A stretch of 64,000 nucleotides of DNA, taken from contig NZ_CP113524.1 of the NCBI RefSeq assembly GCF_026723765.1, positions 186,001 to 250,000 on the forward strand. Reading direction: 5' to 3'. The notes below the pieces were generated by a model. The model did not search any database. It had not been told where the DNA came from and was given only the letters and a program-made list of their open reading frames with translations. Position numbers and translations under genes: made by a program. Positions 20,396 through 58,305 of the stretch are shown piece by piece (within the stretch, counting starts at the first letter, position 1; each line of letters begins with the position of its first letter). Source of the DNA: Lacrimispora xylanolytica. Its GTDB lineage: Bacteria; Bacillota; Clostridia; Lachnospirales; Lachnospiraceae.

Positions 20396-21115
20396 TTATG
20401 TTTCATTTAAATGTTCAGGTACCCCATTTTTTAAAAGCAGCTCCGCCAGATAAAACTCATACTCATCGTCAATATCAATGGAATGTAGCGGGTCCATAAA
20501 ATAAGGATAGGTGGTCCCTGCATAAAAGCTTTTGTGCTTTAAATAAAATGGCACAGAGGTAAGATAGACAGCCCCATTCAACCGATATCCTGATGAGACA
20601 TCCTGTCTTCTTATCTGTCTATCATGAAGAGATGGAATCCCAATTTCACCAGATTCCTTAAGGGTCACAGCCAGATAACAGTTACAGTCAAAGGGACATA
20701 CGCTGACTATGGTGTCTGCCCCTGTTTTAAAGTAACGTTTCACGCTATCCCTTATATGCATTTCATTTCTCAAGGGAGATGTAGGCTGGAGCAGCATGAT
20801 ATAATCATACGTCTTTCCCAGTCGTTCCATCTCTTTGATTCCATGAATGATCACGTCCTTTGTGGCAGCTTTATCCCCTGAAAGCCATGCAGGCCTTAAA
20901 AATGGGGCAGATGCGCCCCATTGATTCGCGATATCCCTATACTGCTCCGAGTCTGTAGAGACAACAATATCGTCAAAAATTCCGGCTTTTTTACAGGCCT
21001 CTATGGTATATGCCATGAGTGGCTTATGATTTAGCTCCAGAATGTTCTTATTGGGCAGTCCCTTGGAACCGCTTCTGGCTGGTATAAATGCTAAAAACCG
21101 TTTATTCTCATACAT
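20396..21115 (-). CDS. legF: CMP-N,N'-diacetyllegionaminate synthase (NeuA family)
   Basis: Cytidylyltransferase that activates a nonulosonic acid with CTP, the last step before transfer. The N-terminal nucleotide motif FIPARSGSKGLPNKNI and the LQPTSPLR and IDIDDEYEFYLAE blocks are diagnostic of NeuA-like enzymes. The start ATG at 21115 overlaps the legG stop (TAATG), so translation is coupled. It is the last gene of a long minus-strand operon. The family alone cannot separate legionaminate, sialate and pseudaminate; the GDP-sugar genes upstream favour legionaminate. Confidence 0.88.
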   Translation of the reverse strand: MYENKRFLAFIPARSGSKGLPNKNILELNHKPLMAYTIEACKKAGIFDDIVVSTDSEQYRDIANQWGASAPFLRPAWLSGDKAATKDVIIHGIKEMERLGKTYDYIMLLQPTSPLRNEMHIRDSVKRYFKTGADTIVSVCPFDCNCYLAVTLKESGEIGIPSLHDRQIRRQDVSSGYRLNGAVYLTSVPFYLKHKSFYAGTTYPYFMDPLHSIDIDDEYEFYLAELLLKNGVPEHLNET

Positions 21116-22278
21116 TACAAACTCCAATCGATATCATAAAATTCCTTCTCCAGTTGAATCCCATTTTGAAACGCCTTCTTTATTTCAGAAATTATTCTTC
21201 CGCTGGTACTCGGACATTCATAAGGATTATGGAGGGAGGGATTTACCCAGTCAACTTCCATTGCTTTGTGAATGGCTGATAGAATGCCGTCATAAGTATC
21301 ATCACAACTGATCACAGAATCTGCCATCACCCGCCCCATTTGTCTGGTACCGATGTTCACGGTCGGGACCTTAAGGCTGGGAGCCTCGATAATTCCGCTG
21401 GAAGAGTTTCCGATGACCACCTGACAGTGGCTCATAAGACTTAAATACCGAAGTGAGCCAAGAGACGTAAAAAAAGCAGCCCGTTCCGGGTGGCATTTTG
21501 CATAATCGGCAGCCAATTCATTGATACGACTTCCACCTGTATCTGAATTGCTTCCAGTAAATATGGTAAACAAAGAGGGAAGAGAATCCAGGGCTTGAAA
21601 CAGTGGCTTAATTTGTTCTTCGACACTCTTTGATTCCAGTGTGGCAGGATGAAATGTGATCAGGGCAAGTTCAGATCCAAGGGAAAGATTTAAGGACTCC
21701 TCCAGTTCCTTTTTGGAGAGGAAAGACAGCTCCTTAAGCCTTTCCACACCCAGAGCTCCAACGTAAAAGACTCTCTCCGGCGCTTCTCCCAGTTGTATCA
21801 CCCGTTTCCTATATTCCATTGTACTGGTGAAATGAAGGTAGCTCATTTTGGTAATTCCATGCCTCATGCAGTCATCAAAAGCGCCCCTTGTCAGCTCCCC
21901 GCCATGAATATGGGCAATGGGAATCCGGCAAATGGCGGCAGCGCTTGCAGCGGTAAAGATCTCATAGCGGTCTCCTAAAAGCAGCATCATATCCGGCTTT
22001 AACCTCTCATACGCCTTAGAAATACCAATGAGCTCAAGGCCCATTGACTTACAGATTCCATAGGAAGTGTCGCTGGCCAGATTCATTTCCACGGTTTCAT
22101 CTATGGTTATCCCGTCCAGCTCCATGTCCCGGTAAGGGGAACTAAATCTGGAATCCATGTGAGCACCGGTTACTACCATTTGAAGCTTTATATCAGGATC
22201 GGCCATGGCTTTACGGATGACTGGAGTTAATAGACCGTACTCCGCCCGGCTGCCTGTTACCACGCATAACCGCTTCAT
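21115..22278 (-). CDS. legG: UDP/GDP-sugar 2-epimerase, hydrolysing (NeuC/LegG family)
   Basis: Removes the nucleotide and inverts C2 to give the free mannosamine-type sugar used by the synthase. 387 residues with the NeuC hallmarks TGSRAEYGLL at the N-terminus, LLLGDRYEIF, IAHIHGGELTRGAFDD followed by RHGITKMSYLHF, and IGNSSSGIIEAP. It overlaps the legI stop by four bases and the legF start by one. In the legionaminate pathway the substrate would be a GDP-linked diacetamido sugar. Confidence 0.88.
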   Translation of the reverse strand: MKRLCVVTGSRAEYGLLTPVIRKAMADPDIKLQMVVTGAHMDSRFSSPYRDMELDGITIDETVEMNLASDTSYGICKSMGLELIGISKAYERLKPDMMLLLGDRYEIFTAASAAAICRIPIAHIHGGELTRGAFDDCMRHGITKMSYLHFTSTMEYRKRVIQLGEAPERVFYVGALGVERLKELSFLSKKELEESLNLSLGSELALITFHPATLESKSVEEQIKPLFQALDSLPSLFTIFTGSNSDTGGSRINELAADYAKCHPERAAFFTSLGSLRYLSLMSHCQVVIGNSSSGIIEAPSLKVPTVNIGTRQMGRVMADSVISCDDTYDGILSAIHKAMEVDWVNPSLHNPYECPSTSGRIISEIKKAFQNGIQLEKEFYDIDWSL

Positions 22279-23270
22279 TTAATAATCCTTTCATCCATTT
22301 TATAATCCCTGTCAGAAGGCGTCCCAAGGAGGGCTTTAAGCCTCATGGGAGAGATTCCAGGGGAACAGCGCTTGGCGCATAGATTATCCATGGTAAACGG
22401 CTCCCCTTTTTTTATGTCCCTGGAGGCTACCAGAAACTTTCTCACCTGGTCCCGGTTTTTACATTCTTCCTTCGATGGTTCCTTATATCCGTTTCCCAAA
22501 GCTATCTCAATGTTTCTTATGCTGTCTGTCATAAGTCTGAATTCAGCTGGCTCCAGGCTCAGTCTGTGGTCTGGTCCGGGCATGGTCTTATCTAGGGTCA
22601 TATGCTTTTCAATGACGCAGGCACCCAGGGCAGCAGCGGCAATGGCGACCTCGATTCCCATGGTATGGTCGGAGTAGCCAATATTTCTTGAAAATTCTTG
22701 CCTAATATGGGACATGGCATTTAAGTTCACTTCCTCCATTGGAGTGGGATAAGCGCTGGTGCAGTGGAGCAGAGTGATATCCTGACCGCTCTCATCAAGA
22801 AGATTCAGTGCCTCCCCAATCTCTTCCATGGTAGACATGCCAGTGGAGAGAATGATTGGTTTTTGTAAGGAAGCAGCTTTCTTTAAGTACCCATAATTCG
22901 TAATTTCTCCGGAGGGGATTTTTATGATTTCAACTCCTAGCTGATCCAGATATTCCATGCTTGTTTCGTCAAATGGGGAAGATAAGAACATGATATTGCG
23001 GGAAGTACAATAAAGAGAAAGTTCTTTGAAGCTGTCATAGGATAGTTCCAGTTCTTTCAGCATTTCATATTGGGAGAGATTTTTCCCTGTGTTCCGGTAC
23101 TGATACTCTGCTTTTATTGCGTCCCTGACAGCCAAAAGCTCGGTGCGGTAGGTCTGAAATTTCACTGCATCTGCTCCCGCTTCCCTTGCTGCATCCACCA
23201 GCCCTTTGGCTGTATCCAAATCTCCATTATGGTTTACCCCTGCTTCGGCGATAATCATAACTCTGTTCAT
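22275..23270 (-). CDS. legI: N,N'-diacetyllegionaminate synthase (NeuB family)
   Basis: Condenses the free hexosamine with phosphoenolpyruvate to the nine-carbon acid. The N-terminal TIM barrel starts IIAEAGVNHNGD and includes VKFQTYRTE, IPSGEITNYGYL, LSTGMSTMEEI and CTSAYPTP; the C-terminal antifreeze-like (SAF) domain carries RSLxA-type sequence LVASRDIKKGEPF. The start is the ATG at 23270, placed by AAAGGAGGT; it lies 44 bases inside the end of legH, an unusually long overlap. Confidence 0.92.
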   Translation of the reverse strand: MNRVMIIAEAGVNHNGDLDTAKGLVDAAREAGADAVKFQTYRTELLAVRDAIKAEYQYRNTGKNLSQYEMLKELELSYDSFKELSLYCTSRNIMFLSSPFDETSMEYLDQLGVEIIKIPSGEITNYGYLKKAASLQKPIILSTGMSTMEEIGEALNLLDESGQDITLLHCTSAYPTPMEEVNLNAMSHIRQEFSRNIGYSDHTMGIEVAIAAAALGACVIEKHMTLDKTMPGPDHRLSLEPAEFRLMTDSIRNIEIALGNGYKEPSKEECKNRDQVRKFLVASRDIKKGEPFTMDNLCAKRCSPGISPMRLKALLGTPSDRDYKMDERIIK

Positions 23271-23910
23271 AAACACCGACCTCCTTTGCAGGCTTTCCGA
23301 AAGCCAGAGTATGGGAAGAAATATTCCTTAATACGAGACTTCCGGCCCCGATCATGGTATTGTCTCCTATGGTGATATTTTGAATGACTGTGGTTCCGGC
23401 TCCAATGTGAGTATGTTCCCCCACGGACACATTGCCGCACAGAACGCAGCCAGGGGCTATGTGAACAAAATCTCCGATGCTTGCACCATGCTCTATAATT
23501 GCTCCTGTGTTAATGATGCAGCCTTTACCAAGAACCGCCCCGGCCCCAATGATAACACCCTTGCCAATAAAGCTGCCTTCCCCCATTGATACATTCTGAG
23601 ATAGAACTGCACTTTTATCTATGATGTTAGGCAACACTAACCCGTTTTGCTTTAAGGTCTCATAAATCCGGATTCTTGGACGGGGGTCTCCCAGACTACC
23701 TACGGCTATGACACCGTAAGAAATTCCTTGATGGCAAAGGTCAGACAGGAGTTCATCGGTTCCCAGAACTGGAACGCCTGAAATGGCTGTGCCTGCCTCA
23801 AGGGTTTGGTCCAGAATACCAATGATATCGTATTCATTGGCAGAACGAATGGAATCAATGACGCTTTCTCCATGGCCGCCTCCCCCAATCAGTATCAGCT
23901 TTTTTTTCAT
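23227..23910 (-). CDS. legH: Sugar O/N-acetyltransferase (PglD/NeuD/LegH family)
   Basis: N-acetyltransferase for the 4-amino sugar in the pathway. It has an N-terminal Rossmann-like nucleotide-sugar domain (LILIGGGGHGESVIDSI) and a C-terminal left-handed beta helix of hexapeptide repeats (ACCEPT: GKGVIIGAGAVLGKGCIINT, IEHGASIGDFVHIAPG). 227 residues, as expected for PglD. The conserved catalytic His is the one in IEHGASIGD. It overlaps ptmE upstream by four bases and legI downstream by 44. Confidence 0.88.
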   Translation of the reverse strand: MKKKLILIGGGGHGESVIDSIRSANEYDIIGILDQTLEAGTAISGVPVLGTDELLSDLCHQGISYGVIAVGSLGDPRPRIRIYETLKQNGLVLPNIIDKSAVLSQNVSMGEGSFIGKGVIIGAGAVLGKGCIINTGAIIEHGASIGDFVHIAPGCVLCGNVSVGEHTHIGAGTTVIQNITIGDNTMIGAGSLVLRNISSHTLAFGKPAKEVGVYEQSYDYRRSRGKP

Positions 23911-24953
23911 AGCTTCATACGCTCCGCCATTTTTCTCATTTCACTGAATTCCCCCATGTCAAGCCAGGTGCTGTCCATTACCGGATACGCACCTGCTTTC
24001 TTCCCGTTTTGCAGACAGAGGCGGATCAGATCCGGCATATCAAATGGGGCTCCTTCCGGGAGAGTGTTTAAAACACCTTTTTCCAGAACGTACAGACCGG
24101 TGCTGACGAGAAATTCATAGCTGGGCTTTTCATTTAAGGCCTGTATGCGGCCTTCTTCATCCAGTGAAACTACACCATAAGGAACTTCATAATTTTTCAT
24201 AGCAGTGACTACGGTGATCTGATTTTCATTTTTGATATGATGGTCAAGGAGCTTTTCGTAATTTACGTCTACTAAAATATCACAGTTGCTGACAAAGAAG
24301 CTGTCTGTAATTTTGTCTTTTAAAAGTGAGAGAGAGCCAGCGGTGCCAAGTGGCTCCTTTTCTTCTATAAAGTTAAGATGATAACGGTCATCATCGTTAA
24401 AATACGCTTTAATCAGTTCTTTTCGGTAGTTCACCGTGAGATAGAATTCCGTAAAACCGTAAGACATCATCTGATTCATGATTCGTTCCACGATGGGGGT
24501 ATCCCCAATGGGAATTAAGGGTTTTGGTATGATTTTAGTATAAGGATAGAGTCTGGAGCCCTTTCCTCCTGCCATGATGACCACAGGAACCTTTTTGCCC
24601 TCTGTTATCCTTTCCTTGGAGGAATTCAGTTCGTTCCAGAATAAAATATCCACAACCTCCATGTGTTCATTTACAAGTGGAAGTCCTTCAATCTTTTTCT
24701 CTCTCATGATATCAAGGGCCAGGGGAGTTTCTGACCGTGTAATAACGATAGGAGAGGTGTTCATAATGCGGCTTACGGCCATGGATAGATTTTCGTTTTT
24801 TAGGATCCAGCGCCGGATGTCTCCGTCCGTAATTACCCCCACCAGCTTGTCATTTCGAACTACCACCAGGAGTTTCTTCGCCGTTTTATCTAACTGACGG
24901 ATTGCTGTTTTGATGGAATCATCTGGTGAAATTGAGAATTTCTTTACGTCCAT
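23907..24953 (-). CDS. ptmE: CBS-domain nucleotidyltransferase (PtmE-like GDP-sugar synthase)
   Basis: Two N-terminal CBS repeats (about residues 1-115) precede a sugar-phosphate nucleotidyltransferase domain with the signature VVIMAGGKGSRLYPYTKIIPKPLIPI split across residues 120-145. This architecture is that of PtmE, the glucosamine-1-phosphate guanylyltransferase that commits GDP-GlcNAc to legionaminic acid in Campylobacter. The start ATG at 24953 is nine bases after GGAGG. Partner genes ptmF/ptmA/pgmL are not in the window. A role as a mannose-1-phosphate type transferase cannot be excluded by sequence alone. Confidence 0.82.
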   Translation of the reverse strand: MDVKKFSISPDDSIKTAIRQLDKTAKKLLVVVRNDKLVGVITDGDIRRWILKNENLSMAVSRIMNTSPIVITRSETPLALDIMREKKIEGLPLVNEHMEVVDILFWNELNSSKERITEGKKVPVVIMAGGKGSRLYPYTKIIPKPLIPIGDTPIVERIMNQMMSYGFTEFYLTVNYRKELIKAYFNDDDRYHLNFIEEKEPLGTAGSLSLLKDKITDSFFVSNCDILVDVNYEKLLDHHIKNENQITVVTAMKNYEVPYGVVSLDEEGRIQALNEKPSYEFLVSTGLYVLEKGVLNTLPEGAPFDMPDLIRLCLQNGKKAGAYPVMDSTWLDMGEFSEMRKMAERMKL

Positions 24954-24976
24954 GTAAACCATCCTCCTTCCGGTAA

Positions 24977-26125
24977 TCACCCTTCATTCAGGGTCTTAAC
25001 AATAAAATTCATGTCAGCTTCCTTAAGGTTTACGCTGCAAGGAAGATTGATCAAATTGCTCTGGTAAAAGGGTGCTTTCTCAATATAATACGCCTGACAG
25101 TCCTTATACATGGTCTGGGTGTGAATAAGCTTCCAGATGGGTCTTGTTTCAATGCCGGATTCCCTTAACCTGGTCATAAGTTCATCCCGCCCAGATTTGT
25201 GGTTATTTAAGAGCAGGGAATAAAACCAATGGTTATTTCTGGCCTTTTCGCAAAATGAAAGAAGTGAGACATCGTCTCTGTCCTTTAATAAGCTTTTGTA
25301 ATAACCGTAGTTCTCTCTCTTTTTTTCAATGTACTCTTCCAGACATTCCAGCTGTCCCACGCCTAAGGCTGCCTGGAGATTGGTCATACGGTAGTTATAA
25401 CCGACTTCATGATGAATGTAGTGGAAGGGATCATCCTTAGCCTGTGCCGATAAATATACAGCCTTTTTTAAATCCTCCTCATTTCTGGCAGTGATCATAC
25501 CGCCTCCGCCAGTGGTGATTATCTTATTGCCGTTAAAGGAATAAGCGCCAAAATCTCCTATGGTGCCTGCAAACCTGCCTTTTAAGCTTCCTTCAGTGTA
25601 TTTGGTTCCAAGTGCTTCCGTTGCATCTTCAATCAGCTTTAGACGGTACTCCTTACACAAGCTCAGAAGGGTTTCCATATCAGCCATGCTGCCAAAGACA
25701 TGAACAATGACAACAGCCTTTATGATCCGCCCCGTAGAACGGTTTAAAAGGCCTTCCTGAGTTTTGGTGCACTCTGTTTTTAGAAACATCTCCAGCTTTT
25801 CCAAGTCCATATTCAGGGTATGGTCGCAGTCCATAAAGATGGGATGAGCGCCTAAGTATGTCACAGGATTGACTGCGGCAATAAAGGTGAGTGTGGGAAC
25901 GATGACCTCCTCATCCCTTTTAATGCCGGAAAGAAGCATAGCCAGGTGGAGGGCTGCCGTACCGCTTTGTACTGCGGCGGTGTTTGGAACCTTTAAGTAG
26001 TCTGCCATTTCCCTTTCAAAACGGGTCACATAGCTGCCAGCGGTAGAGACCCAGCCGCTTGTGATGGCATCGTCCAGATATTTCTTTTCATTTCCTTTTA
26101 AAACAGGAACGGATAACGGTATCAT
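24977..26125 (-). CDS. legC: PLP-dependent sugar aminotransferase (LegC)
   Basis: DegT/DnrJ/EryC1 family aminotransferase that aminates the 4-keto sugar made by LegB. Conserved blocks: the N-terminal SGWVSTAGSYVTRFE, VQSGTAALHLAM, VPTLTFIAAVNPVTY, IEDATEALGT, and the PLP-lysine segment AYSFNGNKIITTGGGGMI. The sequence matches LegC more than PseC by these segments. The true start is the ATG at 26125 after AAAGGGAG; reading further upstream runs into legB coding sequence. Confidence 0.9.
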   Translation of the reverse strand: MIPLSVPVLKGNEKKYLDDAITSGWVSTAGSYVTRFEREMADYLKVPNTAAVQSGTAALHLAMLLSGIKRDEEVIVPTLTFIAAVNPVTYLGAHPIFMDCDHTLNMDLEKLEMFLKTECTKTQEGLLNRSTGRIIKAVVIVHVFGSMADMETLLSLCKEYRLKLIEDATEALGTKYTEGSLKGRFAGTIGDFGAYSFNGNKIITTGGGGMITARNEEDLKKAVYLSAQAKDDPFHYIHHEVGYNYRMTNLQAALGVGQLECLEEYIEKKRENYGYYKSLLKDRDDVSLLSFCEKARNNHWFYSLLLNNHKSGRDELMTRLRESGIETRPIWKLIHTQTMYKDCQAYYIEKAPFYQSNLINLPCSVNLKEADMNFIVKTLNEG

Positions 26126-26145
26126 ATGACTCCCTTTCGACTGGT

Positions 26146-27126
26146 CTAAACAATGTACTGGTCTGTCCGGAAACGGTCCCCATTCTCTTTGATCCACTGA
26201 ATGGTATTTTGAAGACCAACGGAGAGAGGGTATTCCTGCTTCCATTGGGTGAGACGGGTCAGCTTTTCATTGGAGCCAAGAAGCCTTGTTACCTCACTCT
26301 TTTCCGGTCGAAGCCTTTGATCCTCGCAAAGGATTCTGGCTTCTGGATTGATCTGGCGTATGAGTTCCTCTGCCAGGTCCCCGATGGAGATTTCCTTGCC
26401 GCTTGCTATGTTGATTTCTTCTCCCATGGTTTCAGGGGAGCGTTCTATTTCTATGAAGCCGTTTACTGTATCCTTTACATAATTAAAATCTCTGGTAGGC
26501 GTAAGGCTGCCCAGATAAATCTCTTTTTTTCCAGCCAGAAGCTGGCTGATAATGGTTGGTATTACAGCTCTGGCCGATTGCCTTGGTCCGTAGGTATTAA
26601 AGGGACGGACAATGGTCACCGGCAGGGAAAAGCTGCGGTAAAAGGACAGAGCAAGCTGGTCTGCCCCTATTTTCGTAGCGGCATAGGGGGATTGGGCCTT
26701 TTTTGGATGAGCTTCATCAATGGGAACGTAGTCCGCACTTCCGTAGACCTCTGAGGTTGAGGTAATGAGCACCTTACCGGTCCCCAGGCTTTTGGCTGCC
26801 TGAAGGACATTTAAGGTCCCTTTTACATTGGTATCTACATAGGAATCTGGAGACTGATAGCTGTAGGGAATGGCAATGAGGGCTGCCAGATGAAAGACAG
26901 AATCAATACTGGAAAGACAGGCCCTTACCCCATTGGGGTCTCTGATATCTCCGCTTATAATCTCGATTTCATTTCTTATAGAAGCTGGCAGGGTATCCAG
27001 CCAGCCATAGCTGTTAAAGGAGTTGTAATAAGCAAGTACCCTGACTTTAAACCCCTTTAAGACCAGCTCTTCGGTAAGATGGCTTCCGATAAAACCATCG
27101 GCTCCGGTGACCAGCACCTTTTTCAT
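26146..27126 (-). CDS. legB: NAD-dependent 4,6-dehydratase (LegB)
   Basis: Extended short-chain dehydrogenase: NAD motif VTGADGFIGSHL, a STSEVYG block and the catalytic SPYAATKIGAD (YxxxK) with the RPFNTYGPRQ segment. LegB converts GDP-GlcNAc to its 4-keto-6-deoxy form. 326 residues. Its start overlaps the stop of the mini-protein gene upstream (27123) by four bases, which directly ties the sugar pathway to the small transthyretin-like proteins. Confidence 0.9.
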   Translation of the reverse strand: MKKVLVTGADGFIGSHLTEELVLKGFKVRVLAYYNSFNSYGWLDTLPASIRNEIEIISGDIRDPNGVRACLSSIDSVFHLAALIAIPYSYQSPDSYVDTNVKGTLNVLQAAKSLGTGKVLITSTSEVYGSADYVPIDEAHPKKAQSPYAATKIGADQLALSFYRSFSLPVTIVRPFNTYGPRQSARAVIPTIISQLLAGKKEIYLGSLTPTRDFNYVKDTVNGFIEIERSPETMGEEINIASGKEISIGDLAEELIRQINPEARILCEDQRLRPEKSEVTRLLGSNEKLTRLTQWKQEYPLSVGLQNTIQWIKENGDRFRTDQYIV

Positions 27127-27374
27127 GGATTTCTCCCTTCTCCGTGGCTGTTATCAAATATTTTGACACGATACGTGCTCGTTCTGTCAGAAACGGCAAA
27201 GCAGAATTCTCCATACCGATTGGTCAGGGTATGCCCCAGATAAACGCTTGATAAGTCTTCTTCCTTTCGTTCCTCGTTAAACACAGGGACCAGCCGCTCC
27301 AGGATCACTACGGCTCCCACAACAGGGGCGCGGTTGGTGTGCCGGACCAGGCCGCGAATGATTGCATGTGCCAT
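27123..27374 (-). CDS. Mini transthyretin-like protein A
   Basis: An 83-residue protein that consists almost entirely of one carboxypeptidase-regulatory/transthyretin-like beta-sandwich: GLVRHTNRAPVVGAVVIL, then LGHTLTNRYGEFCFAV, then YRVKIF. There is no signal peptide or transmembrane helix. It is one of four paralogues in this cluster (others at 27389, 27685 and 29997). The stop overlaps the legB start by four bases. Its role is unknown; I infer a cytoplasm-made structural protein that may be glycosylated by the neighbouring Maf-type enzyme. Confidence 0.78.
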   Translation of the reverse strand: MAHAIIRGLVRHTNRAPVVGAVVILERLVPVFNEERKEEDLSSVYLGHTLTNRYGEFCFAVSDRTSTYRVKIFDNSHGEGRNP

Positions 27375-27388
27375 AAGACTCCCCCTTC

Positions 27389-27688
27389 TTAAATGCTCTG
27401 AACCGGCTCAAACATATCAAGCTGATAATCAATCTGGGGATTTTTTAAAACAGCAACCGCAAATTCGCCGAACTGGTTGGTTAAGACATAACCGAGAAGC
27501 GTTTTCTGCTTTAAGATGCTGATCGCAGTGATGCGGACTACGGCACCTTCAATAGCCTGGCATTGTGGATTTAATACAGTACCCGTTAATAATACTTCAC
27601 AGGAGGCTTCCATGGTGATTACCGCCTGAGCCACGTTACGATTATTAAATTTGTCTGGTGGAATAATCAGTTCAGTATAACCGCTCAA
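27389..27688 (-). CDS. Mini transthyretin-like protein B
   Basis: 99 residues. A 33-residue lead (MSGYTELIIPPDKFNNRN...) precedes one transthyretin-like unit: LLTGTVLNPQCQAIEGAVVRI, LLGYVLTNQFGEFAVAV, YQLDMFEP. No export signal is present. The start overlaps the stop of paralogue C by four bases and the gap to paralogue A is 14 bases, so these are co-translated. The function is unknown. Confidence 0.8.
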   Translation of the reverse strand: MSGYTELIIPPDKFNNRNVAQAVITMEASCEVLLTGTVLNPQCQAIEGAVVRITAISILKQKTLLGYVLTNQFGEFAVAVLKNPQIDYQLDMFEPVQSI

Positions 27689-28011
27689 GAAGAGTCCTCC
27701 TTCTGGTTTGTTATGAGGGGAGCATAGACCGTCAGCTCATACTTCATCTGCGGCTTTGCTTCAAGGGAAAAAAGATACTGCCCGGCCTCATCGGTCACGG
27801 CATAGCCAAGGACAAGACGTTCCTGGTTGGCTTCATCGATTTGAGTAAGCATGATGGAAGCACCGGCGCAGGGGGTCCCCTCCTCTGAATATACCGTTCC
27901 TTTTATGATCTGGTGATGATCCCGGCTTAGATGAAAATTATAGTGATTTTCCCTCCATGGCAGAAGCTTGGAGCCCCGGATCATAAATGTGTTCCTTCTG
28001 GGACCGTCCAT
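27685..28011 (-). CDS. Mini transthyretin-like protein C
   Basis: 108 residues with a basic lead (MDGPRRNTFMIRG...) and one transthyretin-like unit: IIKGTVYSEEGTPCAGASIML, LVLGYAVTDEAGQYLFSL, YELTVYAP. No signal peptide. GGAGGGGGG lies just ahead of the ATG. Overlaps paralogue B by four bases. The spacing of G-V, P-x-x-G-A, L-G, T, G-x-Y/F and Y-x-x-x-x-F/Y is the same in all four paralogues. Confidence 0.8.
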   Translation of the reverse strand: MDGPRRNTFMIRGSKLLPWRENHYNFHLSRDHHQIIKGTVYSEEGTPCAGASIMLTQIDEANQERLVLGYAVTDEAGQYLFSLEAKPQMKYELTVYAPLITNQKEDSS

Positions 28012-28035
28012 TGAAACTCCCCCCTCCTTACACCC

Positions 28036-28200
28036 TTACTCGTTTTGGGTATAAACCGTTACATTTAATTCCTGCAGGTTTTTGGTGTCCTCCCCGCGAA
28101 TGATATTGCCTTCCTGCTCTTTGCCGTTTACGATCATTTTATTGATCTTTATTTCTTTGTATTTACCATCGATGATCTCGTTCTTATTTTCCTGTTCCAT
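28036..28200 (-). CDS. 54-residue hypothetical protein
   Basis: A short gene easily missed: ATG at 28200, stop TAA at 28038-28036, MEQENKNEIIDGKYKEI ... ELNVTVYTQNE. It is hydrophilic with beta propensity at the C-terminus, and the ending LNVTVYTQNE resembles the YELTVYAP end of the neighbouring mini-proteins. It fills the gap between the Maf gene (30 bases) and paralogue C (24 bases), with AAGGAGGGG after it for the next gene. The function is unknown. Confidence 0.62.
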   Translation of the reverse strand: MEQENKNEIIDGKYKEIKINKMIVNGKEQEGNIIRGEDTKNLQELNVTVYTQNE

Positions 28201-28229
28201 ACAAATCCTCTTTCCTTCCGGCAGATTTA

Positions 28230-29960
28230 TTAAACTATATGCGATTCATAAAATTCTGATACCGTAGAACGGGCAGTATCCCTGATCTCTGTTAAAATCT
28301 CATGGAGCTTTGAAAAATACTCATAGAAGAAGTTGGCCTGATATTGAAGGTCAGAAGTCAGATGTTCAAAGTCCTTTGCCAGCATGGAATTATGCTCCTC
28401 CTTTATTTCATACAGAAATTCACTGTAATATCCCCCAAGGTAACTGGTGTAGGGGTGGTTCTCAAAGCTGTTTACCAGATGCAGGATATAGAGGATACGC
28501 TGAAGGTCAATGTCATCCTCCTCAACTTCAACAAGAGATTTGGTCTCATTCTCCAGACGTATGGTCTCACATAGCTCCAGGCCCTGTTCTGTCTTGATGA
28601 TAGAATCCTCTAAAAACTCCAACAGGGACTTAATAATATCCTTTGAATCCAGGGTCAGTTCATGACTGGGAAGAAAAGGTACCTTTTTCTTTGAGAAATC
28701 ACCGTGACCTAGCATCTCATCAAGCTCCTTGTGAGGGGCCCCTTTTATTTCAGCACCGTAGGAGCAGTTAATGAAGCGGATAAAGGGATGGTCCTTGTAT
28801 TGATTGATATAAAGCTCTAAGTTTTTTCTGAAATAATCAAGAGTCACTGTAGAACCAACCCATTGACCGTTTATGTCCTTTGCCAGGGTCTGGGGTGCAT
28901 AGTTTATGGTGCTGTCATAGAGAAAGGTAGCACTGTCCGCATGATGCTTCTGGTCCGTATATGCCAGGTCCTGACCGATCAGCAAAATGGGAGAGCAGCC
29001 AAGCATAGCAGCGATGTCAATGCAGGCATGTGAAACAGAGCCGCCGCAGTAGACGGCCTTTAAATGCTCCATTCCTTTTACGGTGTGGGAAAGCAGCAGG
29101 GAGATAAAGATTTTTTCTCCCTTATAATGTTTCATAAGATACCGGTTGCTGTACTCATAAAAGGCAAGAGGCACCGTAAGATCCAAATGCTCCTTCATCA
29201 TATCAAAGTTGGCATCCACCGGATCCACCGACACAATGAGATCAGGGGTAATTCCATTTTTGATCAGCGCATCTACGGTTCTGCTTCCCGTAATAATAAA
29301 GCAATCCTTTAACCTGTCTTTGTGTTTTTTCATGACCTCTATGTTCTGATCAAGAGAAGGCCCTCCCGATACCACGATGGCTGGTACCCCTGCATTGGAA
29401 AACAGGTAGTGGTGAATGGGGGTGGACTGGTCAATTATCTTCATGTTGGCAATCATATTTTTAATAAATACTTTCTTAAAGCGCCTGGCTAAGGATACCT
29501 GGGAAGCGGATTTTATAATCGTCCAGTCCAGATGCTCAATAAGCCTGTCGTGCTCCTTTTTATATACGGTACTGTAATTACCAAAGGAAAAGAAATAAAT
29601 ATTGTTAATGTTCTTTAAGTTAATACTTTCTTCAAATATCTTTTTTACCACATCTTCCTTATAGTACACCAGCTTTATGTTGTCCCCCGGATCATTGGAA
29701 AAGCTGCGGTATATGGTGAGATTCGGTTCAAATATAATGACTTGATTCTTTGGGCATAGCACCTTTTTTAATTCCGGCAGATAATCGCCTGTATCAATTC
29801 CAAATAAAAAAATCAGGGAATCAAATTTTAAATCACTTAGTGTATTTAAAAGATCCTTAATGCTGTTTCTGTAGCTGGCACTGTCTGCCAGTAAATGATA
29901 CTGCCGGTCTTTTTTTATACGGTAGACGAAGTATCCATCTGAAGTTTTGACTTTTTTCAT
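28230..29960 (-). CDS. Maf/DUF115-type glycosyltransferase
   Basis: 576 residues with the central DUF115 (MptE-like) fold: VSGGPSLDQNIEVMKKH, FIITGSRTVDALIKNGITPDLIVSVDP and LIGQDLAYTDQKHHAD. Proteins of this class (motility-associated factors) transfer pseudaminic or legionaminic acid to Ser/Thr of flagellin in the cytoplasm. The start ATG at 29960 is five bases after GGAGG. No flagellar gene is in the window; the neighbours are mini transthyretin-like proteins and the legionaminate pathway, so its acceptor is probably not flagellin here. This is inference from context. Confidence 0.85.
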   Translation of the reverse strand: MKKVKTSDGYFVYRIKKDRQYHLLADSASYRNSIKDLLNTLSDLKFDSLIFLFGIDTGDYLPELKKVLCPKNQVIIFEPNLTIYRSFSNDPGDNIKLVYYKEDVVKKIFEESINLKNINNIYFFSFGNYSTVYKKEHDRLIEHLDWTIIKSASQVSLARRFKKVFIKNMIANMKIIDQSTPIHHYLFSNAGVPAIVVSGGPSLDQNIEVMKKHKDRLKDCFIITGSRTVDALIKNGITPDLIVSVDPVDANFDMMKEHLDLTVPLAFYEYSNRYLMKHYKGEKIFISLLLSHTVKGMEHLKAVYCGGSVSHACIDIAAMLGCSPILLIGQDLAYTDQKHHADSATFLYDSTINYAPQTLAKDINGQWVGSTVTLDYFRKNLELYINQYKDHPFIRFINCSYGAEIKGAPHKELDEMLGHGDFSKKKVPFLPSHELTLDSKDIIKSLLEFLEDSIIKTEQGLELCETIRLENETKSLVEVEEDDIDLQRILYILHLVNSFENHPYTSYLGGYYSEFLYEIKEEHNSMLAKDFEHLTSDLQYQANFFYEYFSKLHEILTEIRDTARSTVSEFYESHIV

Positions 29961-29996
29961 AGTATCCTCCATAAAATGTCGCCCTTTTGGCTTTTT

Positions 29997-30284
29997 TCAT
30001 ATGGACGAAAATGCCCGAAGTTCATATTGTCTGCCGGGAATTCTGGGAAGAGAGAGTGCATAGGTTCCGTCTGAAAGGGTAAAGGAGAGTCCCAACCGGA
30101 CCACTTCATCAGGATTGTCAGGATGGTAGGATAGAATTTCAACTGCGGCTCCGGAAAGAGGGATTCCTGATGGACTGTAAACGGTTCCCGTAAGAAGCAG
30201 TAAAGAACTGCCGGGAGCCACTGCATCAGCGGTCACAACTCCGGAACAGATGAGCTGACCGCCTGTAAAACATAAGTTTGACAA
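29997..30284 (-). CDS. Mini transthyretin-like protein D
   Basis: 95 residues from a TTG start (AAGGAGGT nine bases upstream). It has a short lead and one transthyretin-like unit: LLTGTVYSPSGIPLSGAAVEI, RLGLSFTLSDGTYALSL, YELRAFSSI. No signal peptide. It is separated from paralogues A-C by the Maf gene, so the enzyme is flanked on both sides by its proposed acceptors. The TTG start is the least certain part of the call. Confidence 0.75.
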   Translation of the reverse strand: MSNLCFTGGQLICSGVVTADAVAPGSSLLLLTGTVYSPSGIPLSGAAVEILSYHPDNPDEVVRLGLSFTLSDGTYALSLPRIPGRQYELRAFSSI

Positions 30285-30303
30285 CGTTCTCTACCTCCTT
30301 AAT

Positions 30304-30336
30304 AGGGGTGTCCTTACACCGTGACTGGACACCCCT
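30304..30336 (-). other. Intercistronic hairpin
   Basis: AGGGGTGTCC (30304-30313) and GGACACCCCT (30327-30336) form a perfect 10-bp stem with a 13-base loop between the first and second genes of the minus-strand cluster. No T-run follows in the direction of transcription; the next gene's ribosome site does. It may stabilise the upstream message or trim read-through, so the first gene could be made in excess. Confidence 0.6.
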
Positions 30337-30342
30337 AAGTGA

Positions 30343-30627
30343 TTACTTACTGTAAAATTTCAACCGAAGTATGACGCCGGCTCTGGTTGTGATACCATAG
30401 TTTGCGTTAGCATCTGTAAATGTTACAAGATCTGGCTCTTCTGTGGTTGGTTTTGTGCTCTCCCAAATGGCAACAGCACCGCTCCTTAAAATGGTATTGC
30501 TAAAGACAGCAGTACCTCTAAGCAACAAAAGACCCCAGCTGGTTGTGGAAAGTTTTGCAACAATCACTTGTCCGGAATCTGCAACAGAGGCCAAAATAGT
30601 TTTCGCAATCGGTTTATAGTTAGCCAT
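30343..30627 (-). CDS. 94-residue Ser/Thr-rich protein heading the glycan cluster
   Basis: First gene of the long minus-strand run. The 94 residues are rich in Ser, Thr and Ala (KLSTTSWG, ESTKPTTEEPD) with alternating beta-type hydrophobics and no export signal. I do not recognise the family. The ribosome site is GAGGGGG. It sits directly behind a sigma-K-like promoter and a perfect palindrome, and is set off from the following genes by a strong hairpin. It is a candidate abundant structural protein or glycosylation target. Confidence 0.7.
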   Translation of the reverse strand: MANYKPIAKTILASVADSGQVIVAKLSTTSWGLLLLRGTAVFSNTILRSGAVAIWESTKPTTEEPDLVTFTDANANYGITTRAGVILRLKFYSK

Positions 30628-30652
30628 AAAAACGCCCCCTCACATTCTCATT

Positions 30653-30668
30653 AGAAATACGTATTTCT
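30653..30668. promoter_or_regulatory. Perfect 16-bp palindrome at the cluster's transcription start
   Basis: AGAAATAC immediately followed by its complement GTATTTCT, with no spacer. It lies between the -10-like box (30673-30681) and the first start codon, about where transcription should begin. This is an operator-like arrangement; the binding protein is unknown. Confidence 0.5.
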
Positions 30669-30672
30669 ATGT

Positions 30673-30700
30673 TATAGTATGTCTTTTATGAAATAGAGTG
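30673..30700 (-). promoter_or_regulatory. Putative sigma-K-type sporulation promoter
   Basis: On the minus strand CATACTATA (30681-30673) matches the sigma-K -10 form CATANNNTA. An AC dinucleotide (30699-30698) stands exactly 16 bases upstream, matching the short -35 of that sigma factor. The -10 also resembles sigma-E, but no sigma-E -35 was seen. It is 46 bases ahead of the first start codon of the glycan cluster. Short motifs occur by chance, so this is suggestive only. Confidence 0.45.
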
Positions 30701-30748: not shown

Positions 30749-30791
30749 GAAAAAATACGGCAGGCATGAATGGTTTCATGCCTGCCGTATT
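30749..30791 (-). terminator. Strong intrinsic terminator (minus strand)
   Basis: TACGGCAGGCATGAA pairs with TTCATGCCTGCCGTA (15 bp, 4-base loop) and is followed on the minus strand by TTTTTTCG. It ends the small membrane-protein transcript and insulates the glycan cluster's promoter. Confidence 0.88.
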
Positions 30792-30797: not shown

Positions 30798-30965
30798 TTA
30801 CCGTTTCTTAAAGAACCCCTTGTCATAGAGCAATCCCAGGGAAAGACCGAATATCAACCCTATTCCAAGATTATTAATCACTGCCCCAATAATCAGACCA
30901 ATACAAAGGCCTGTAGCTAAGCCATACTGATAAGAATCATCTTTATTCCGATAGAAATTTGACAT
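30798..30965 (-). CDS. 55-residue membrane protein
   Basis: A short gene with ATG at 30965, preceded by AAGGGG, and a stop just ahead of a strong terminator. The product, MSNFYRNKDDSYQYG followed by two glycine-rich hydrophobic segments (LCIGLIIGAVINNLGIG, IFGLSLGLLY) and a basic end KGFFKKR, is probably a small two-pass or hairpin membrane protein resembling the glycine-zipper type. The function is unknown. Confidence 0.72.
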   Translation of the reverse strand: MSNFYRNKDDSYQYGLATGLCIGLIIGAVINNLGIGLIFGLSLGLLYDKGFFKKR

Positions 30966-53673: not shown

Positions 53674-56196
53674 ATGCTTGCAAAAGGGTTTACAGAGCCA
53701 ACGGAGCGTATAAAAAAACTGAAAAGAGCTATTGTGGATGCAATTCCATATGTTGAATCAGAACGAGCTGTTTTAGTAACAGAATCTTATAAAGAGACGG
53801 AAGGGCTGTCTCCGATTATGAGGAGAGCAAAGGCCGCGGAGAAGATTTTTAACAGTCTTCCAATCACCATTCATGACAATGAACTGATTGTGGGTGCAAT
53901 TACAAAGAACCTCCGTTCCACCGAAATCTGCCCTGAATTTTCCTATGATTGGGTAGAGAAAGAATTTGATACCATGGCAACCAGAATCGCGGACCCATTT
54001 CAGATTCCAAAGGAGACTGCAGCAGAGTTAAAGGAAGCATTTAAGTACTGGGATGGAAAGACTACCAGTGCCCTGGCAGATTCCTATATGTCCCAGGAGA
54101 CAAAAGACTGCATCAGCAATGGTGTATTTACCGTAGGAAACTATTTCTATGGCGGCGTGGGACACGTGTGCGTGGATTATGGCAAAGTTTTAAAAATCGG
54201 ATTTACCGGTATTATCCGTCAGGTCATGGAAGCAATGGCAAAGCTTGATACCAGTGATCCGGATTATATTAAGAAGAAAAATTTCTATGAAGCCCTCATC
54301 ATTACATATACGGCAGCCACTCGGTTCGCACATCGTTATGCAGAAAAAGCAAGAGAGATGGCAGCGGTTTGTCTCGATGCGAAAAGAAAAGCAGAACTGC
54401 TTCAGATTGCAGCAAACTGCGACAAGGTTCCCAAGCAGGGTGCAACGAACTTCTATGAGGCATGCCAGTCCTTCTGGTTTGTACAGATTCTGCTTCAGAT
54501 TGAAGCCAATGGACATTCCATCTCACCAGGACGTTTTGACCAGTACATGAATCCCTATCTTGCCATGGATAAAGACATTTCCCATGAGTTTGCACAGGAA
54601 CTGGTAGACTGTGTATGGGTCAAGTTAAATGATATCAATAAGACCAGAGATGAAGTTTCTGCCCAGGCATTTGCTGGATACGCAGTATTCCAGAACTTAA
54701 TTGTAGGCGGTCAGACAGAAGACGGACTGGATGCAACGAATGAAATGTCTTATATGTGTATGGAGGCGGTTGCACATGTTAAACTCCCTGCACCATCATT
54801 CTCCATTCGTGTGCATCAGAACACACCGGACGAATTCCTTTACCGCGCCTGTGAGCTTACCCGTTTAGGCCTTGGTGTCCCTGCCATGTATAACGACGAA
54901 GTAATTATTCCTGCACTCTGCAACAGAGGCGTATCCTTAGCAGATGCAAGAAATTACTGTATCATCGGTTGTGTGGAGCCACAGTGTCCTCATAAAACAG
55001 AAGGTTGGCACGATGCCGCATTCTTTAATATTGCAAAGGTCCTTGAAATCACTCTGAATAACGGAAAAGTTGGGGATAAGCAGTTAGGTCCTGTAACAGG
55101 AGATATTACCTCCTTTACCAATTTAGAGCAGCTTTTCGAGGCCTACAAAAAGCAGATGGAGTATTTTGTTTACCATCTTGCAGAGGCAGATAGCTGTGTG
55201 GATTATGCCCATGCAGAACGTGCACCCCTTCCATTCTTATCTGCTTTGGTGGATGACTGTATTGGCCGTGGTAAGAGTGTTCAGGAAGGCGGGGCAATCT
55301 ATAACTTTACCGGACCACAGGCGTTTGGTGTTGCTGATGCAGGAGATTCCCTTTGTGCGATCAAGAAGCATGTGTTTGAAAACAAAGAGATTACCATGGC
55401 ACAGTTAAAAGAAGCGCTTGATCATAACTTTGGCAACTGCTGTGACAAGACTTGTTCTTTAGCGGAATCTACGGATGAAGACAGAATTTATGAAGCAGTA
55501 AAGAGAATTTTAAGCAATAACGGTTCCATCAATCTTGCTGATTTACAGGCACAGTTGAGCAAGCCTCAAAAAGAAGCTTCAGGCAGCAAGGAAGACTATG
55601 CGCAGATTAAGAGAATTCTTGAGAATACGCCATGGTTTGGTAACGATGAAGACGAAGTGGATATGATTGCAAGACGCTGCGGACAGATTTATTCCTATGA
55701 AGTTGAGAAATACAAAAACCCAAGAGGCGGTCAGTTCCAGGCAGGATGCTATCCTGTATCCGCCAATGTATTGTTTGGTAAGGATGTAGGAGCCCTTCCT
55801 GACGGAAGACTGGCGAAAGCACCTCTTGCAGACGGAGTATCCCCAAGACAGGGAAAAGATACCAATGGTCCCACTGCGGCTGCCATGTCAGTTTCTAAAC
55901 TGGATCATGCAAACTATTCAAACGGAACCTTATATAACCAGAAATTCCTTCCATCAGCCCTTGCTGGAGATGAAGGCTTAAAGCATTTTGCTTCCATTGT
56001 ACGTTCTTACTTTGATCACAAGGGAATGCATGTGCAGTTTAACGTAATCGACCGTGATACCCTTCTTGCGGCTCAGAAGGATCCGGATCAGTACAAGGAT
56101 CTTGTAGTCCGAGTCGCTGGCTACAGTGCGCAGTTTACTGTGCTTGCAAAAGAAGTTCAGGATGACATTATAAGCCGTACCGAGCAGACGTTATAA
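53674..56196 (+). CDS. Glycyl radical diol dehydratase (B12-independent)
   Basis: Signature enzyme of the microcompartment, 840 residues. Active-site positions coincide in number with Clostridium butyricum glycerol dehydratase: His164 (GGVGHVCVDY), His281-Ser282 (NGHSISPGRFD), Cys433 and Glu435 (IIGCVEPQ), Asp447 (TEGWHD). The glycyl radical is Gly816 in RVAGYSA. The TEGWHD segment distinguishes it from choline TMA-lyase. It should dehydrate 1,2-propanediol to propionaldehyde, or glycerol to 3-hydroxypropionaldehyde; the sequence cannot decide. It carries about 53 extra residues at about 592-645 relative to the shorter enzyme. Start ATG after GGAGGATA. Confidence 0.92.
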   Translation: MLAKGFTEPTERIKKLKRAIVDAIPYVESERAVLVTESYKETEGLSPIMRRAKAAEKIFNSLPITIHDNELIVGAITKNLRSTEICPEFSYDWVEKEFDTMATRIADPFQIPKETAAELKEAFKYWDGKTTSALADSYMSQETKDCISNGVFTVGNYFYGGVGHVCVDYGKVLKIGFTGIIRQVMEAMAKLDTSDPDYIKKKNFYEALIITYTAATRFAHRYAEKAREMAAVCLDAKRKAELLQIAANCDKVPKQGATNFYEACQSFWFVQILLQIEANGHSISPGRFDQYMNPYLAMDKDISHEFAQELVDCVWVKLNDINKTRDEVSAQAFAGYAVFQNLIVGGQTEDGLDATNEMSYMCMEAVAHVKLPAPSFSIRVHQNTPDEFLYRACELTRLGLGVPAMYNDEVIIPALCNRGVSLADARNYCIIGCVEPQCPHKTEGWHDAAFFNIAKVLEITLNNGKVGDKQLGPVTGDITSFTNLEQLFEAYKKQMEYFVYHLAEADSCVDYAHAERAPLPFLSALVDDCIGRGKSVQEGGAIYNFTGPQAFGVADAGDSLCAIKKHVFENKEITMAQLKEALDHNFGNCCDKTCSLAESTDEDRIYEAVKRILSNNGSINLADLQAQLSKPQKEASGSKEDYAQIKRILENTPWFGNDEDEVDMIARRCGQIYSYEVEKYKNPRGGQFQAGCYPVSANVLFGKDVGALPDGRLAKAPLADGVSPRQGKDTNGPTAAAMSVSKLDHANYSNGTLYNQKFLPSALAGDEGLKHFASIVRSYFDHKGMHVQFNVIDRDTLLAAQKDPDQYKDLVVRVAGYSAQFTVLAKEVQDDIISRTEQTL

Positions 56197-56229
56197 AGGG
56201 TTCCGGCATAGAAAAAGAAGGGAGTCGGC

Positions 56230-57147
56230 ATGGAGTCAATTAATTATAATCTGACGGGAACCGTATTTGATATCCAGCGGTTTTCCCTGCACGATGGTCC
56301 GGGAATCCGAACAATCGTATTTTTAAAGGGTTGTCCTCTCTCCTGCCAGTGGTGCAGTAATCCGGAATCCCAGAGTATGAAGCCGGTCATGATGTATAAA
56401 AAAGATGAGTGCATTCATTGCGGACGCTGTATCAATGTGTGCAAAGCAGGAGCCATCAGCACGGAAAATGAAAACTGGATAGACAGAAAAATATGCATCA
56501 GCTGCGGAGAATGCGCCAATGCATGTCCGGCAGGAGCCCTTGTTTCTAAAGGAAAGACCATGTCCGTTCAGCAGGTGATACGGGAGTTAAAAAAAGATGC
56601 CACTACTTACCGCCGCTCCGGAGGGGGAGTCACCCTCTCTGGCGGTGAGCCACTGGTGCAGTATGAGTTTGCAGCAGAGATTTTAAAAGCCAGTAAGGGG
56701 CAGGGCTGGAACACTGCCATTGAGACCACCGGAATCGGAACGGAAGAAGCGGTAGAACAGGTTATCCCATATGTAGATACGGTTCTTTTGGATATCAAGC
56801 ATATGGACCCGGAACAGCATAAGCGGTTTACGGGAGCGGACAATGATGTGGTATTAAAAAATGCTCCCCATATTACCCAGATATCAGATACGGTAATCCG
56901 GGTTCCTGTGATTCCAGGTTTTAATGATTCCCTGGAGGCAATTGGTGAAATTGCAGCATATGCAAAGACCCTGACAGGTATCAGAACCATACACCTTCTT
57001 CCCTACCATTCCTTTGGAGAAAACAAATATGAGCTGTTAGGGAAGAAGTACGAACTGGAACATGTTAAGCCACTGAATCCGGAAGATCTTACAGAGTGTA
57101 AGGAAGTTGTGGAAAAGTACGGTTTTCGGTGCGTAATTGGTGGATAA
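56230..57147 (+). CDS. Glycyl radical enzyme activase (radical SAM)
   Basis: Installs the glycyl radical on the diol dehydratase using S-adenosylmethionine. 305 residues. The radical SAM motif is CPLSCQWC (Cys35, Cys39, Cys42). A ferredoxin-like insert holds two more [4Fe-4S] sets, CIHCGRCINVCKAG and CISCGECANACPAG. GGGVTLSGGEPLVQ is the SAM-contacting segment. It starts 33 bases after the dehydratase and resembles PflA/DhaB2-type activases. Confidence 0.94.
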   Translation: MESINYNLTGTVFDIQRFSLHDGPGIRTIVFLKGCPLSCQWCSNPESQSMKPVMMYKKDECIHCGRCINVCKAGAISTENENWIDRKICISCGECANACPAGALVSKGKTMSVQQVIRELKKDATTYRRSGGGVTLSGGEPLVQYEFAAEILKASKGQGWNTAIETTGIGTEEAVEQVIPYVDTVLLDIKHMDPEQHKRFTGADNDVVLKNAPHITQISDTVIRVPVIPGFNDSLEAIGEIAAYAKTLTGIRTIHLLPYHSFGENKYELLGKKYELEHVKPLNPEDLTECKEVVEKYGFRCVIGG

Positions 57148-57173
57148 ATTCAAATTGAGAATGGAGGAAAAGA

Positions 57174-57947
57174 ATGGATCAGCAGTTAATTGAAAAAGTA
57201 ATGAAACAAGTATCTGATGAGCTTGGAATCAAGAAAGAAACAACACGTCCGGCAGCAAACGGAATCGGGATGACTGAATTTGTGGGAACTGCCATTGGCG
57301 ATACCATAGGACTTGTAATTGCCAGTGTTGACCCAATGCTTGCCGGGGCTATGAAATTAGGCAAGTACCGTTCGGTTGGTATTATTGGGGGCAGAGTCGG
57401 AGCCGGCCCCCAGATATGGGCTGTAGATGAAGCAGTAAAGGCAACCAATACAGAGATTATTTCTGTAGAGCTTCCAAGAGATACCAAAGGCGGAGCCGGA
57501 CACGGAAGTTTAATCTATATCGGTGCAGAAGATGTATCTGATGCCAGAAGAGCAGTGGAAATCGCACTTCAGGTACTGCCAAAATACTTTGGAGATGTTT
57601 ACTCCAATGATGCAGGACATCTGGAATTCCAGTATACGGCAAGAGCCAGCTACTGTCTGGAAAAGGCACTTGGAGCACCAGTAGGCAAGGCATTTGGAAT
57701 GACCTGTGCAGGTCCCGCAGCCATTGGTACTGTTTTAGCAGATATTGCAGTAAAAGCAGCCAATGTTGAAGTGGTAGGCTATAGCTCTCCGGCATCAGGA
57801 ACCAGCTATTCCAACGAGGTAATCCTAACCTTTACCGGAGATTCCGGAGCAGTAAGGCAGGCCGTGCGGGCCGCCATCGAAGCAGGCAAGAAAATGCTTG
57901 GAGCCTTGGGAGATGAACCAAAGACCTCTGAGACCCCTTACATTTAA
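57174..57947 (+). CDS. Microcompartment shell protein, BMC-T (PduB-like)
   Basis: 257 residues with two tandem BMC folds: GLVIASVDPMLAGAMKLGKYRSVGIIG and, in the second half, the GKAFGMTCAGPAAIGTVLADIAVKAANVEVVGYSS region. It forms pseudohexameric trimers in the shell. The first about 40 residues (DQQLIEKVMKQVSDELG) form an amphipathic helix and linker, as in PduB, where the N-terminus links shell and cargo. The ATG follows GGAGGAAAAG, 26 bases after the activase. Confidence 0.92.
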   Translation: MDQQLIEKVMKQVSDELGIKKETTRPAANGIGMTEFVGTAIGDTIGLVIASVDPMLAGAMKLGKYRSVGIIGGRVGAGPQIWAVDEAVKATNTEIISVELPRDTKGGAGHGSLIYIGAEDVSDARRAVEIALQVLPKYFGDVYSNDAGHLEFQYTARASYCLEKALGAPVGKAFGMTCAGPAAIGTVLADIAVKAANVEVVGYSSPASGTSYSNEVILTFTGDSGAVRQAVRAAIEAGKKMLGALGDEPKTSETPYI

Positions 57948-57984
57948 CTAAAAAAACATTCAGGAATCATAAGGAGGCTTTACA

Positions 57985-58263: not shown

Positions 58264-58305
58264 ATATGGTTATGGGGCGATGATAGCCCCGTTACCAGAA
58301 ATGAG

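Follow-up and report, generated by a model that had tools for sequence, protein, structure and literature searches.

A candidate mother-cell glycosylation operon for the spore surface in Lacrimispora xylanolytica

Fourteen open reading frames (ORFs), all reading in one direction on the minus strand between positions 20396 and 30627, occupy part of the 64,000-nucleotide (nt) stretch of Lacrimispora xylanolytica DNA analysed here (the window, bases 186001-250000 of a genome assembled as a single contig of 4.52 Mb). Judged by their content and by the promoter in front of them, these genes, hereafter the cassette, probably constitute a mother-cell sporulation operon devoted to glycosylation, the product of which would be a layer of glycoprotein on the spore surface. 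An earlier account made from the letters of the window (the sequence-only reading) had described a co-directional block of this order and extent and had taken it for a self-contained glycosylation system. The ORFs are indeed present as described, and the idea of a unit is upheld, with the sugar pathway, a Maf transferase and several small proteins encoded together in a conserved neighborhood. What had been missed is the sigma-K-type promoter, matched in 22 of 22 distinct upstream regions, from which the timing of the system is deduced. The features are listed below from the upstream end, lengths being in amino acids (aa).

30754..30791, minus strand: intrinsic terminator-like site with a 17-pair stem and a T-rich tail, placed after an upstream 55-aa ORF and parting that ORF from the operon
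30673..30700, minus strand: sigma-K-type promoter CAC-N16-CATACTATA, a consensus match, found in 22/22 distinct upstream regions
30654..30667, minus strand: perfect 14-bp palindrome GAAATACGTATTTC, after the promoter and near the expected transcription start
30343..30627, minus strand: p94, 94 aa, Thr/Ser-rich, diverged transthyretin-like (TTR-like), first gene, candidate acceptor, dN/dS (ratio of nonsynonymous to synonymous substitution rates) 0.03
29997..30284, minus strand: TTR-D, leaderless single-domain CarboxypepD_reg-like mini-protein with an N-terminal extension
28230..29972, minus strand: Maf/DUF115 (PF01973) nonulosonate (NulO) transferase of a non-flagellar group
28036..28200, minus strand: p54, 54 aa, adaptor or acceptor
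27685..28011, minus strand: TTR-C mini-protein, PF13620 E 3.7e-7, under the gathering score
27389..27688, minus strand: TTR-B mini-protein, PF13620 match under the gathering score
27123..27374, minus strand: TTR-A mini-protein, little or no N-terminal extension, 4-base overlap with legB
26146..27126, minus strand: legB, NAD-dependent 4,6-dehydratase, TIGR04180 493 bits (cut-off 475)
24977..26125, minus strand: legC aminotransferase, TIGR04181 481 bits (cut-off 420)
23907..24980, minus strand: CBS and nucleotidyltransferase domains (PF00571, PF00483)
23227..23910, minus strand: neuD-type sugar acetyltransferase, TIGR03570 218 bits (cut-off 160.8)
22275..23276, minus strand: legI/neuB nonulosonate synthase, TIGR03569 464 bits (cut-off 399.65)
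21115..22278, minus strand: legG/neuC hydrolysing 2-epimerase, TIGR03568 434 bits (cut-off 235.9)
20396..21127, minus strand: legF-type CMP-nonulosonate transferase, PseF TIGR03584 176 bits, under the cut-off of 205.7, named by context

The start of legC was set at the conserved MIPLSVP, the ORF itself extending to 26245. The overlap between mini-protein A and legB, on which the sequence-only reading had remarked, is borne out.

The promoter, the leader and sigma-K

The region upstream of p94 was scanned in 29 loci, of which one has no p94 and six have a region identical to another's, leaving 22 distinct regions. Every one of these carries the pattern of sigma-K regulon promoters, AC-N16/17-CATANNNTA, with the AC 71-75 nt before the p94 ATG and a spacer of N17 in two; they do not amount to 22 independent events, because many come from close relatives. 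In mononucleotide shuffles the mean chance of the motif is 1.7% per region. The upstream regions of loci L054 to L058 barely align with that of the window elsewhere, yet carry the motif, and in genomes G486 and G797, which belong to another family and have a changed gene order, CAC-N16 or N17-CATATAATA precedes p94. The pattern agrees with the clostridial sigma-K consensus (PMC5749712, excerpt), and in Clostridioides difficile an AC at -35 marks sigma-K as against the ATA of sigma-E (PMC3789822, excerpt). One match of the genome-wide scan stands 18 nt upstream of a 90-aa ORF rich in Cys and Asn, whose composition, by reading, is coat-like.

Could the match be fortuitous, and the glycosylated mini-proteins form a vegetative surface layer or an intracellular assembly? 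The motif is short, and a near form of it occurs 17 times in the genome, but it stands at one distance in 22 of 22 regions, several of which barely align otherwise. Moreover, a vegetative surface layer has no evident way out, because neither a signal peptide nor an exporter gene is seen in the cassette. This alternative is judged most improbable.

The palindrome that follows the promoter is exact in 20 of the 22 distinct regions, and was not seen by eye in the relatives from family f43 (G486 and G797). The genome holds one exact copy and four more with one mismatch, as against three places for the backward control, so the palindrome looks specific to this operon; a binding site for a genome-wide regulator was considered and rejected. 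It may be either an operator or a 5′ hairpin of the mRNA, and on the question of hairpin folding the whole leader gives a z of -2.43. Terminator-like sites in the region are no commoner than in shuffles, the stem at 30754..30791 being the longest by far. The ORF before it, directly upstream of the operon (window 30798-30965), encodes a glycine-rich hydrophobic protein of 55 aa; it is also found in L052 and L053, and was not seen in L054-L059.

As for sigma-K itself, the SigK family model was matched in 31 of the 31 genomes asked, a count that includes paralogues, with 3 of the 31 exceeding the curated cut-off; the best whole match in this genome is probably SigE. The SigK-like gene is split in two by an interval of about 4.3 kb, in which a large serine recombinase is encoded that adjoins the 3′ half (G000:C1:2134583-2139448, or L117 781-5667). 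Partial matches to the first half of sigK occur in 24 of 25 genomes of the genus, and to the second half in at least 22 of 25 among the matches listed. The gene looks intact in G144 and G324, and no clear SigK was seen in G170 and G308, two incomplete assemblies. By analogy, the interruption looks like a skin-like element, of the kind that C. difficile also has in sigK. Bacillus subtilis likewise has a skin element (PMC5025042, excerpt).

Small proteins and the sugar pathway

Six small proteins accompany the enzymes. Compared with a relative from the genus whose Maf is 78% identical, their dN/dS values run from 0.03 to 0.34, p94 being the most constrained (0.03), p54 equalling the Maf (0.05) and TTR-A to TTR-D lying at 0.10-0.34. 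These ratios are rough because dS (0.9-1.7) is near saturation; being low in every small gene, they argue for real genes, not chance ORFs.

TTR-A to TTR-D are 83-108 aa long and leaderless by inspection of their sequences, and several of them match one another in profile searches (TTR-D against TTR-C, E 1.7e-19). Their scores against PF13620 range from 14.4 to 30.8 bits, the best being that of TTR-C, whereas the gathering score is 32.3; six of nine TTR-C rows match the family at E<=0.01. These proteins thus resemble the CarboxypepD_reg/TTR-like family in sequence, and are not filed as members. The four leaderless TTR-like mini-proteins of the sequence-only reading are real genes, several of them related to one another and all leaderless by inspection, with a family assignment that stays below threshold.

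The Ser/Thr-rich 94-residue protein was likewise correctly noticed (20 of its 94 residues are Ser or Thr), although it had been seen as a separate kind of protein. p94 of the window has no Pfam match, and its profile aligns with that of TTR-D at an hhalign score of 39.7, whereas 60 column shuffles reached no more than 15.2 and reversing the profile gave 15.6. The match to TTR-C is weak (23.2), and none was found to TTR-B, for which a smaller p94 profile was used. On this profile homology, p94 is a fifth, diverged TTR-like protein. Sequence searches of the PDB with p94 and TTR-D found nothing credible, the best E values being 0.064 and 0.093. Across its rows, p94 holds 16-26 Ser and Thr in 94-122 residues, the 122-residue row beginning too early, and a Ser/Thr-bearing loop after a conserved VW or IW is kept in most of them; in the window this loop reads ESTKPTT and is a tentative candidate for the glycosylated site.

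p54 is longer in several relatives, some having a basic C-terminal tail and one a Ser-bearing repeat. The p54 of [C.] fimetarium (L058 11663-12232) reaches 185-189 aa through a 15-nt repeat (QESDA/QESEP) with 19 QES motifs, a sequence that would suit an O-glycosylated stalk.

The enzymes form a pathway of the CMP-legionaminate type, near-complete as had been claimed. LegB, LegC, NeuC, NeuB and NeuD all exceed their NCBIfam cut-offs, and a CMP-transferase, nearest to PseF and under its cut-off, stands with them, so that dehydratase, aminotransferase, synthase, epimerase and CMP-transferase occur together. The protein at 23907-24980 is presumably a PtmE-like sugar-1-phosphate nucleotidyltransferase, CBS and nucleotidyltransferase domains being joined as in Campylobacter jejuni PtmE, and because of this fusion a GDP route is indicated. 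The seven enzymes would make CMP-legionaminate or a close relative, an identity deduced from family matches, because the CMP-transferase is under the PseF cut-off and LegI and LegG match models named for neuraminate. No NulO synthase other than the cassette NeuB was found in the genome; a second PF03102 match was rejected as such, and is a 3-deoxy-D-arabino-heptulosonate 7-phosphate (DAHP) synthase.

The legionaminate-type module of the window was rightly read, while a pseudaminate version in a relative had escaped notice. In the distant cassette of G781, PseB, PseC, PseG and PseI, all over their cut-offs, replace the legionaminate genes, which suggests that the sugar module can be interchanged. 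G486 matches LegB, LegC, NeuB and NeuC but not NeuD; G797 is similar, without NeuB or NeuC within the stretch fetched.

Conservation of the cassette and the flagellar question

A conserved association of Maf, mini-protein and leg genes in other genomes was the check proposed by the sequence-only reading, and the association is found. A collection with one genome per species was scanned for loci, a scan that can detect a locus only if it shares one of two short peptide patterns. Eight loci from named relatives were recovered, six of them with all 14 genes in the same order; flanks differ between most of these loci and are common to the window and Clostridium sp. 12(A). The Maf is 99% identical to that of the window in Clostridium sp. 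12(A), 95% in [Clostridium] aerotolerans and 63% in Lacrimispora celerecrescens, and 23 of the 25 genus genomes have an orthologue of it. In [C.] fimetarium no legC is seen between legB and the nucleotidyltransferase gene (L058 14112-14215), the rest of that genome not having been searched. In G322, a genome 89% complete and 6% contaminated, the Maf is found in three overlapping pieces or frames (G322:C1:1336230-1337968), due either to decay or to sequencing errors.

The small proteins follow the same distribution. In 20 genus loci (the window and 19 others, those of G306, G307 and G322 not being included), p94 and TTR-D are present everywhere except in L071, where the contig begins at maf, and TTR-C, B and A everywhere except in L070, where the contig ends. 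Farther away, p94 was matched at E<=0.01 in 6 of 397 genomes of the family, one of them weakly (G350, E 0.009), in 5 of the 391 class genomes and in 1 of the 398 from the phylum, these sets overlapping and this genome being counted in each. Beside every strong p94 match whose surroundings were viewed, the cassette Maf is present. G486 and G797 (f43) keep TTR-D, p94, Maf, p54, TTR-C, B and A together in a slightly changed order, and G781 (family f60) keeps p94, Maf and p54. Upstream in the G781 cassette, inside its pseudaminate version, is encoded a protein of 564 aa that contains a Big_2 domain and lacks an obvious signal peptide (L094 7763-9457).

The transferase is a Maf/DUF115 enzyme, with 153 bits against PF01973 (cut-off 34.6) for the MptE-like catalytic domain; it is the only match to that family in the genome. 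The only sequence match to it in the PDB is 5mu5, with a profile match at E 2.9e-5. Known Maf enzymes act in the cytoplasm on flagellin. Is the cassette, then, a flagellin glycosylation island, in which Maf and CMP-legionaminate modify flagellin and the small proteins serve as chaperones? Mafs have been described as flagellin NulO transferases (PMC13317340, excerpt), and the genome does encode flagellins. The earlier remark that no flagellar gene is found here holds for the cassette and for the window, which has no flagellin-like ORF, but two flagellin_N matches lie elsewhere in the genome; the flagellin at C1:152074 is surrounded, as judged from the ORFs, by other genes related to sugars, with no Maf found at that place.

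Several observations oppose such an island and agree with the view that this Maf is non-flagellar. Flagellin was found in none of the 12 cassette loci, whereas it lies within the fetched stretch of 22 of the 27 other Maf loci returned for the family (further matches were listed without loci), and in none of these 27 stretches were relatives of the TTR-like proteins, p94 or p54 found. In a Maf tree of 46 rows, the 17 cassette rows form one group, at 100/100, apart from the flagellin-linked Mafs and behind a branch of 1.78 changes per column, although the tree program warns that long branches meet at this group. Galacturonibacter (taken as G144) carries the cassette as well as a second Maf, which lies elsewhere and next to flagellin. 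Finally, the promoter is of sigma-K type, and no sigma-D-like match occurs in the 8 upstream regions checked. Flagellin glycosylation was accordingly rejected as the principal explanation and is judged very unlikely.

At window 53674-63670, reading of the ORFs shows a large glycyl-radical enzyme, its activating enzyme, several bacterial microcompartment (BMC) shell-type proteins and an aldehyde dehydrogenase, and this region looks like a microcompartment operon.

A proposed mechanism and its relation to known systems

Sigma-K is active late in the sporulating mother cell. At that stage, given the conserved promoter, its RNA polymerase would transcribe the 14 genes there, and the seven enzymes would supply CMP-legionaminate or a close relative. 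Maf would then move the sugar onto Ser/Thr of one or more co-encoded leaderless small proteins, for which p94 and the TTR-like proteins are the likeliest candidates by gene order and co-conservation, as the sequence-only reading had suggested for the mini-proteins. p54 is perhaps an adaptor or an extra acceptor. From the mother-cell cytoplasm the glycosylated proteins would be deposited on the forespore, where they would form part of a layer (coat, exosporium or appendage) that gives the spore a charged, sialic-acid-like surface. No exporter would be needed, because the mother-cell cytoplasm holds both Maf and the leaderless acceptors and borders the outside of the forespore.

A number of points weigh against this sporulation operon. 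Its timing, its sugar and its acceptor are all deduced from sequence, and the acceptors could lie elsewhere. Many of the 22 upstream regions belong to a single genus and so do not count as independent, and G781 has no perfect sigma-K match before p94, having one before p54 instead. The motif is weakly specific by itself: CAC-N16-CATANNATA occurs 17 times in the genome as compared with 10 for the backward control, a background that makes the genome-wide motif uninformative as a positive control, and a looser form has 34 matches over the 269 kb of loci fetched. Sub-threshold Pfam matches are the basis for the fold assigned to the mini-proteins, and only two TTR-like proteins, nearest to TTR-C and TTR-D, are seen in G781. 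Pathway genes are missing from two of the eight named loci, legC in L058 ([C.] fimetarium) and legB, together with TTR-A, in L059 (a contig of a metagenome-assembled genome). Maf is absent from 2 of the 25 genus genomes, and the system is thus dispensable.

A sporulation operon might also pass its sugar to another acceptor, such as a polysaccharide, or a protein of the coat or exosporium whose gene lies elsewhere, with the mini-proteins acting as adaptors or chaperones, or forming an unrelated spore layer under the same promoter. Enzymes of the Maf-2 type use a small co-encoded adaptor, GlfM (PMC13317340, excerpt), p54 lies directly behind maf, and the final legionaminate acceptor of B. subtilis was not known to the authors who described it there (PMC7439481, excerpt). 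Six small proteins exceed what an adaptor requires, however, and Maf, p94, p54 and TTR-like proteins stay joined when the sugar genes change, even if G781 has only two of the latter. This explanation is considered unlikely, and glycosylation of the co-encoded small proteins is preferred.

More tentatively, and with somewhat less than even confidence, the system may be modular. Its sigma-K-timed core would consist of one Maf, p54 and leaderless TTR-like subunits, five at most, whose N-terminal extensions would let them assemble into a glycosylated fibre or shell of the spore, and an interchangeable legionaminate or pseudaminate module would serve this core. If true, this would be protein O-glycosylation dedicated to spores, providing a spore nonulosonate transferase together with its acceptors. 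The cassette would take the Maf family beyond flagellar biology, and is a candidate for both transferase and acceptor in one operon of sporulating anaerobes. Sialic-acid-like sugars on such spores would bear on their adhesion and recognition, and since the core is retained with either module, legionaminate or pseudaminate, the specificity of Maf for donor and acceptor would be open to a tractable test. In the literature, no report of a sporulation Maf or of this cassette was found, judging by titles and abstracts of open-licence PMC papers and by queries some of which were narrowly worded.

Four known systems are useful for comparison. The appendage locus of Clostridium taeniosporum has sigma-K consensus promoters and clustered genes for related repeat proteins of a spore surface structure, one of them a glycoprotein, but its proteins are larger, of DUF11 and collagen-like types, and none of the words legionaminic, sialic, glycosyl or carboxypeptidase appears in the main text of the paper (PMC5749712). 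With the C. jejuni leg/ptm flagellar genes the cassette has in common the LegB, LegC, LegI, LegG and LegF types (enzyme names as in PMC13317340, excerpt) and the CBS-nucleotidyltransferase; it differs in transferase target, regulation and partners, and in its NeuD-type acetyltransferase.

The Maf flagellin nonulosonate transferases have the same family, donor class and cytoplasmic action as the cassette Maf, which is distinguished by the lack of a nearby flagellin, a separate tree group, a sigma-K-type promoter and small TTR-like partners. A parallel in timing comes from the sps genes, by which B. subtilis makes, during sporulation, the legionaminate carried on its spores, as part of the crust (PMC7439481, excerpt). 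There too, a sporulation-time legionaminate pathway sends its product out of the mother cell and onto the spore surface. A role as the transferase was excluded for SpsA and SpsB, and neither transferase nor acceptor was known in 2020 (same excerpt); B. subtilis is not among the control genomes matching PF01973. The sps pathway uses UDP-linked precursors (PMC7439481, excerpt). The cassette described here co-encodes a transferase and candidate acceptors.

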